In this document: positions 36,915-37,569 of the stretch, piece by piece | Numbering within the stretch: the stretch's first letter is position 1 | Layout of the letters: each line of letters begins with the position of its first letter | Source of the DNA: Chlamydoabsidia padenii | Lineage: Eukaryota > Mucoromycota > Mucoromycetes > Mucorales > Cunninghamellaceae | DNA: 64,000 bases | Reading direction: 5' to 3' | NCBI GenBank assembly: GCA_025330725.1 | Contig: JAIWND010000008.1 | Span: 124,001-188,000, forward strand | Notes under the pieces: model-generated | Database searches by the model: none | Told to the model about the DNA's origin: nothing | Seen by the model: only the letters and a program-made list of their open reading frames with translations | Position numbers and translations under genes: made by a program

Positions 36915-37569
36915 TCATGCCTTCTTGGCAGCTTGAGCGGCCTTTTTGGATTCCTTGGATTTGGCAATAGCGGCTTGACGGGCAGCAGCACGAGCATCGG
37001 GTTTTTGGTTACGCTTGGCTCGGATAGCATCCCAGGAGGCACCAGCAATAGCACGTTCATGCTTGACAGTACGGCGAGAGCGCTTCTTGGCTACTTCTTC
37101 GGTAACACCCTTCTTATTGAGGCGGCGGTAAATGGTGGTCCAGCGGATCTTGCGAGGGTTCAAGCGTTGGAGAAAGTAAGATTCAGCCTTGCCATTGATG
37201 AAGCGGAAGGTCTGCGCAAAAAAAAAAAAAAAAAAAAAAAAGTCAGGGCGTCGTTTATGCATCGTCTTTATCGTGCCTATTTAGGATATACATACTCTGT
37301 TGGAGTGGGAAAAAAAAAGTTCAAGAGTGAGTAGGGAGTGACCTGCTGTACGTTTGACCTTGTCGTTCTGGTATATACCTGCTATCAATACGGACATAGG
37401 TCTTACCCCTGGCAGGATAGATTTTGAATCCAGAAAAGGCACAAATCTCAAGCCTAAGTTGAAACAAAAAATAAAAATCATACGGATGAATAGGTAATCA
37501 TATGTATTGATTGCATGATTGCATGGATGGATGGGTAGATGGATGGATGGATGATATTCTTTACTTCAT
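36915..37569 (-). CDS. RPL24: Ribosomal protein eL24 with a one-nucleotide exon
   Basis: Large-subunit protein at the subunit bridge. Best model complement(join(36915..37211,37296,37379..37453,37565..37569)), 125 aa. Exon 1 is ATGAA before GTAAAG. Exon 2 encodes the family start (MKLEICAFSGFKIYPARGKT, YVRIDS) and stops in phase 2 at AGC AG before GTATAT. Exon 4 begins in phase 0 with ACC TTC CGC (TFRFINGKAESYFLQRLNPR, KIRWTTIYRRLNKKGVTEEV, KKRSRRTVKHERAIAGAS) and ends KKAAQAAKKA. Exactly one extra base is needed, and the interval offers ...CCAACAG^A^GTATGT..., with a pyrimidine tract before and a strong donor after. This gives AGA (Arg) at the position where homologues have Lys. Without it the protein frameshifts. 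Protein identity is certain; the micro-exon is inferred. Confidence 0.9.

Follow-up and report, generated by a model that had tools for sequence, protein, structure and literature searches.

A predicted one-base exon in the eL24 ribosomal protein genes of Chlamydoabsidia padenii

The eL24 genes of Chlamydoabsidia padenii (Mucorales, Cunninghamellaceae) appear to include a single-nucleotide exon. In this reading, to which we assign a probability of about 0.94, two short GT-AG introns lying one base apart are removed to give the eL24 mRNA, and the A between them is left as a constitutive exon that completes the arginine codon AG/A of the motif VRxDS[RK]xF (slashes within sequences mark splice junctions). 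That the exon is spliced in vivo we infer from three features of the genomic sequence: the frame needs the A, splice signals lie on both sides of it, and the arrangement is conserved in five gene copies. One-base exons as such are known; the literature searched gave no earlier case from a gene for a ribosomal protein or from Mucoromycota.

The eL24 gene and its five copies

The window, a stretch of 64,000 nucleotides, spans positions 124001-188000 of contig C78 in an assembly of 34.2 Mb and 95 contigs. The eL24 gene lies on its minus strand at 37569-36915 (Table 1), and its exon 4 (51.9 bits) and exon 2 (34.6 bits) both match PF01246 (eL24) above the curated cut-off of 27 bits. The first-pass annotation of this DNA had placed a single-nucleotide exon, the A at 37296, between introns of 82 and 84 nt, with exon 2 ending in phase 2 and the next exon starting in phase 0. 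The sequence bears out this layout and both phases (at 37379 and 37211), and the same layout recurs in four further copies with different introns. At its high end, the interval of 37212-37379 given for the event takes in one base of exon 2; the remaining span consists of the introns and the A. Very long sense-strand T runs precede acceptors in eL24 introns (37217-37240 in the window; intron 1 of L012), and their assembled length may be uncertain.

Table 1. Features of the eL24 gene in the window and YAGAGTATGTAT clusters elsewhere in the genome. Positions preceded by a contig handle refer to that contig, all others to the window.
Feature	Coordinates	Strand	Remarks
Exon 1, coding part	37565..37569	-	ATGAA; GT or GC donor next in all five copies
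Intron 1	37454..37564	-	111 nt, phase 2
Exon 2	37379..37453	-	75 nt, end ...GATAGCAG, phase 2 at 37379
Intron A	37297..37378	-	82 nt, GTATAT...CAACAG; branch-point-like CTCAC 35 nt before end
Predicted single-nucleotide exon	37296..37296	-	A, third base of Arg codon AG/A; same A in 5/5 eL24 copies
Intron B	37212..37295	-	84 nt, GTATGTAT...GCGCAG (starts GTATGT); branch-point-like CTGAC 35 nt before end
Exon 4	36915..37211	-	297 nt including stop; starts ACC in phase 0 (ACCTTCCGC from 37211)
PF01246 match	C78:161095-161214		inside exon 4
YAGAGTATGTAT clusters	G000 C3:41000-42035, C18:5963-8020, C38:45886-47303, C38:173128-173645, C42:152745-154259, C59:83284-84782		spacing of a few hundred bases; apparently a dispersed repeat

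The genome carries five eL24 genes, on contigs C78, C13, C56, C23 and C3, and one RLP24 gene, on C67. The five copies encode the same 125 amino acids without a single difference, at a third-position identity of 0.698-0.873. The interval between exon 2 and exon 4 measures 167, 169, 170, 183 and 153 nt, divided into introns A and B of 82/84 (window), 59/109, 73/96, 79/103 and 67/85 nt. Each copy has YAG/A/GTAYGTAT in the middle of the interval, and little else is alignable, as judged by eye from a MAFFT alignment of the five intervals. Intron 1 of the copy on C13 (L009) starts with GCAAGT and is a GC-AG intron; the other four copies have GT there. The protein ends at 125 amino acids (...AAKKA) in every copy, a length also found in Absidia repens and one Cunninghamella echinulata protein, and many database relatives from Mucor and Rhizopus reach about 145-152 amino acids.

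Reading frame and alternative splice chains

Splice chains were enumerated over GT or GC donors paired with AG acceptors, for introns no shorter than 40 nt and a middle exon no longer than 40 nt; the counts thus cover these intron classes and not the AT-AC class. Open single-intron chains number eight in the window copy and two in each of the other four, and none of them keeps RIDS-x-TFRF. The five copies have 60, 34, 25, 22 and 12 two-intron chains, of which exactly one per copy yields RIDS-x-TFRF within these bounds: in all five it is the chain with the one-nucleotide exon. The database protein of C. padenii (P0002) reads DSRTFRF, which by this enumeration requires the A. The residue it completes occupies a basic column, as the first-pass annotation had said of the homologues: among the matches listed, the 91 proteins from outside Mucorales and Umbelopsis that carry the intact site, defined as VRxD[SNGA][RK]x[FY], have arginine in 50 cases and lysine in 41.

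The earlier assertion that no other AG/GT pair restores the frame proved too strong, and holds only for chains that keep the motif. Inside the interval of the window copy, joining GTCAAA..AAATAG keeps the frame open and adds 28 residues after the arginine, an option that the enumeration returned in none of the other four copies. Just outside the interval, the donor GTCCGT (GTTCGC in the copy on C3) restores the frame and deletes VRIDSR, which is formally possible in all five copies.

A single larger intron running from this in-exon donor to the exon 4 acceptor is the best surviving rival of the one-base exon, and an improbable one. The eL24 protein would then genuinely lack VRIDSR (KGKTY/TFRF), a form taken, among the matches listed, by 11 of the 49 models from Mucorales and Umbelopsis that are broken at the site, and the chain is open in frame in 5/5 copies. 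However, such an intron deletes a motif whose aspartate is present in 91/91 of the intact-site proteins from outside these two groups, again among the matches listed; its donor scored worst of the sites tested (-4.8 to -8.9, on a matrix that had drifted); and both the conserved YAG/A/GTAYGTAT and the conserved end of exon 2 would be left unexplained.

It is still less credible that the A marks an alternative or regulatory splice site, a cassette or poison exon, in place of a constitutive one. Mis-splicing could indeed lower expression. A direct join of exon 2 to exon 4 shifts the frame and ends early, as the first-pass annotation had stated, leaving a product of 43 amino acids in 5/5 copies, and retention of intron B brings a stop at 31-70 amino acids across the five. 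Yet no enumerated chain that leaves out the A gives a full eL24 with an intact motif, so that inclusion must be the productive form, and regulation would come in addition to the one-nucleotide exon and not replace it.

The one-base offset of the direct join would also fit an mRNA of exon 2 and exon 4 whose frame is rescued post-transcriptionally, for example by programmed frameshifting or RNA editing. We consider this very improbable, as it does not explain why an acceptor, the A and an extended donor recur at matching positions in five copies that have diverged. An assembly or sequencing error that dropped a base from an exon, which the first-pass annotation had named as a finding that would refute its reading, has a negligible chance: the introns do hold long T runs, where length errors arise easily, but no such run is in an exon, and the same mistake would be required at the same codon at five loci on five contigs, while the models of independent genomes are broken at the same place.

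Splice signals and the order of intron removal

As a control for the observed signals, every one of the five intervals was put through 20,000 dinucleotide shuffles. AG-N-GT alone is common in shuffled sequence (frequency 0.043 to 0.297), so the weight falls on the extended donor, together with the frame and the recurrence across copies. YAG-N-GTRNGT occurred at frequencies of 0 to 0.00195, and YAG-N-GTAYGTAT never occurred in any of these shuffles. A CTNAY word lies 22-57 nt before the end in 10/10 sub-introns, by a loose pattern taken without a shuffle control.

A self-trained splice-site matrix placed the micro-exon donor below all 311 selected introns in 5/5 copies (score 3.8 for the window copy and -2.1 for the other four) and the intron A acceptor between the 5th percentile (the copy on C56) and the 68th. 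This matrix had drifted towards an implausible composition, with AAG at 129 of its 311 acceptors, and was judged unreliable. The score nevertheless counts against a micro-exon donor of ordinary strength. A stricter intron survey found no unambiguous intron. A relaxed and noisy survey gave 84 candidates, 42 of them with a margin of at least 1; these 42 have a median length of 82 nt, GTAAGT as the commonest donor, TAG as the acceptor in 28 cases and mostly A at +4, where the micro-exon donor has C or T.

Under base-pairing rules, positions +1 to +3 and +5 to +8 of a GUAYGUAU donor can form pairs with U1. Splicing of the micro-exon would depend on this long intronic part, GTA[C/T]GTAT, since AGA on the exon side offers U1 little pairing. 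The upstream donor, that of intron A, is well matched on its exon side (CAG) and weak at +5 and +6, and we infer that this split of strength between the two donors, exon side in one and intronic extension in the other, matters. Introns A and B would be taken out in succession, since a single base leaves no room for two spliceosomes side by side. Either order would be workable on paper: AG ends exon 2 as well as intron A, and the context AGA/GTAYGTAT is thus the same before and after removal of intron A.

In recursive splice sites (zero-length exons, or ratchet points) a donor directly follows an acceptor. The eL24 site resembles them in an adjacency of acceptor and donor that implies stepwise removal, but differs in that one base stays and is needed for the frame: an A separates AG from GT in 5/5 copies. 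For the plant gene APC11, Guo and Liu (2015) argue for intron definition combined with recursive-like stepwise removal (PMC4674806). For plant microexons, the upstream intron is reported to tend to leave later (PMC8831610). Either scheme could hold for eL24.

The combined signal was also sought elsewhere in the genome. YAGAGTAYGTAT occurs 48 times, against 18 for a reversed control, and five of the occurrences are the eL24 sites. Flanks were scored for 19 of the 43 non-eL24 sites (L054 was left out), and 18 of these 19 showed no pair of coding windows. The remaining one, a YAGAGTATGTAT site in L044 (C16:208000-210000), has coding-like windows on both sides, at least 447 nt apart, and is possibly a further micro-exon or a product of chance.

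Distribution, precedents and origin

Scans of viral and prokaryote sequence collections turned up no second Mucorales locus. Three protein searches, each represented by its best 120 matches (of 351, 383 and 1235), gave 167 distinct eL24 proteins. Taxa were labelled by hand from the protein names, and 25 unnamed proteins (22 with the intact site, 3 without) were left out of the contrast. The first-pass annotation had proposed comparing the same position in other Mucorales, and at the protein level the models often break exactly there: among the matches listed, the intact site is missing from 43/62 proteins of Mucorales and 6/6 of Umbelopsis, together 49/68, against 5/74 from other named organisms. 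We rely on these counts and not on a Fisher test (p about 1.6e-16), which treats related sequences as independent. The 19/62 Mucorales proteins with an intact site, among the same matches, are compatible with a correctly called micro-exon or with a gene that does not have it.

The 49 broken models among the matches listed fall into several forms. VRxDSR is deleted in 11, exon 2 is read in the wrong frame in 10, eight read DSRV[RCS], two read into the upstream donor, two have the junction that results from skipping the A (DSRLS), and 16 take other forms, one of which (P0125) looks by eye like a third such junction. DSRV[RCS] is the read-through translation of A/GTACGT, A/GTATGT or A/GTAAGT. Among the matches listed it occurs in five genera: in Absidia glauca, Rhizopus stolonifer (two proteins), Mucor fragilis, M. 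circinelloides (two), Rhizomucor pusillus and Lichtheimia ornata. Most simply read, the genes behind these proteins carry the same one-base exon, and annotation pipelines tripped on it. The contrast in broken models and the five genera with DSRV[RCS] thus suggest, at the level of annotated proteins, that the exon is probably common to many Mucorales, and perhaps to Umbelopsis. The five exceptions among the other named organisms are P0088 from Ustilago, with one residue missing, P0153 and P0157 from Entrophospora, with the N-terminal part missing, and P0161 (Thamnocephalis sphaerospora) and P0162 (Saitozyma podzolica), both from outside Mucoromycota. P0161 has the same VRxDSR-type deletion, and the arrangement may on this evidence reach further than Mucoromycota.

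A literature search that covered few subscription papers returned nuclear one-base exons in APC11, VPS55 and CYP621A, mitochondrial cases as well, and no example from a ribosomal protein gene or from Mucoromycota. Two of the papers (PMC4674806 and PMC12940212) count one and two earlier single-nucleotide exons, and two conserved 1-nt clusters are described in plants (PMC8831610). Plant APC11 (PMC4674806) shares with eL24 a constitutive one-base A exon that is needed for the frame, is flanked by AG and GT and was missed by annotation. It differs in being a plant cell-cycle gene with experimental proof, whereas eL24 is a fungal ribosomal protein gene with introns of 59-109 nt and five copies, known from sequence. 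Plant VPS55 (PMC8831610) likewise has a one-base exon that is kept over a large group and is absent from annotations; it is a membrane-traffic gene of land plants, and its 1-nt microexon was shown by RNA-seq and RT-PCR, in contrast to the genomic reading of eL24. A fungal case is Fusarium CYP621A (PMC12940212, February 2026), where one base inside a conserved motif was found through a phase mismatch and is kept in orthologues. That exon is a G in a rarely expressed ascomycete P450 gene, with reads in SRA, and the eL24 exon is an A in a ribosomal protein gene of Mucorales; the CYP621A authors call theirs the first one-nucleotide exon in a fungal gene (PMC12940212).

The RLP24 paralogue (L013, on C67) has a single phase-0 intron at the place of the eL24 one-base exon (DSK/TFRF), with borders GACAGCAAG/GTAAGT...TAG/ACC, both as judged by eye. 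A plausible origin of the eL24 arrangement is an old phase-0 intron after the AGA codon, joined later by another intron that entered one base further upstream and split AG from A. An alternative, put forward for Fusarium, is that a base was lost and a cryptic exon then made up for it (PMC12940212).

If the exon is widespread, many public eL24 records from Mucorales are wrong at this site. The natural variation in intron lengths and in the upstream donor between the copies makes the use of the signals and the order of intron removal directly testable. A more speculative and rather unlikely proposal is that the exon arose before the split of Mucorales and Umbelopsidales and has since been kept for its function in all their eL24 genes, forced sequential splicing acting as a checkpoint that tunes the supply of eL24 to splicing capacity. 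If this were true, any lapse in splicing would give a frameshifted, early-stopped mRNA from every copy. Apart from this proposal, a gene such as eL24, which encodes a ribosomal protein, is presumably expressed at a high level and occurs here in five copies, would demonstrate that splicing of a one-base exon is compatible with high flux and that such an exon can persist over long periods.
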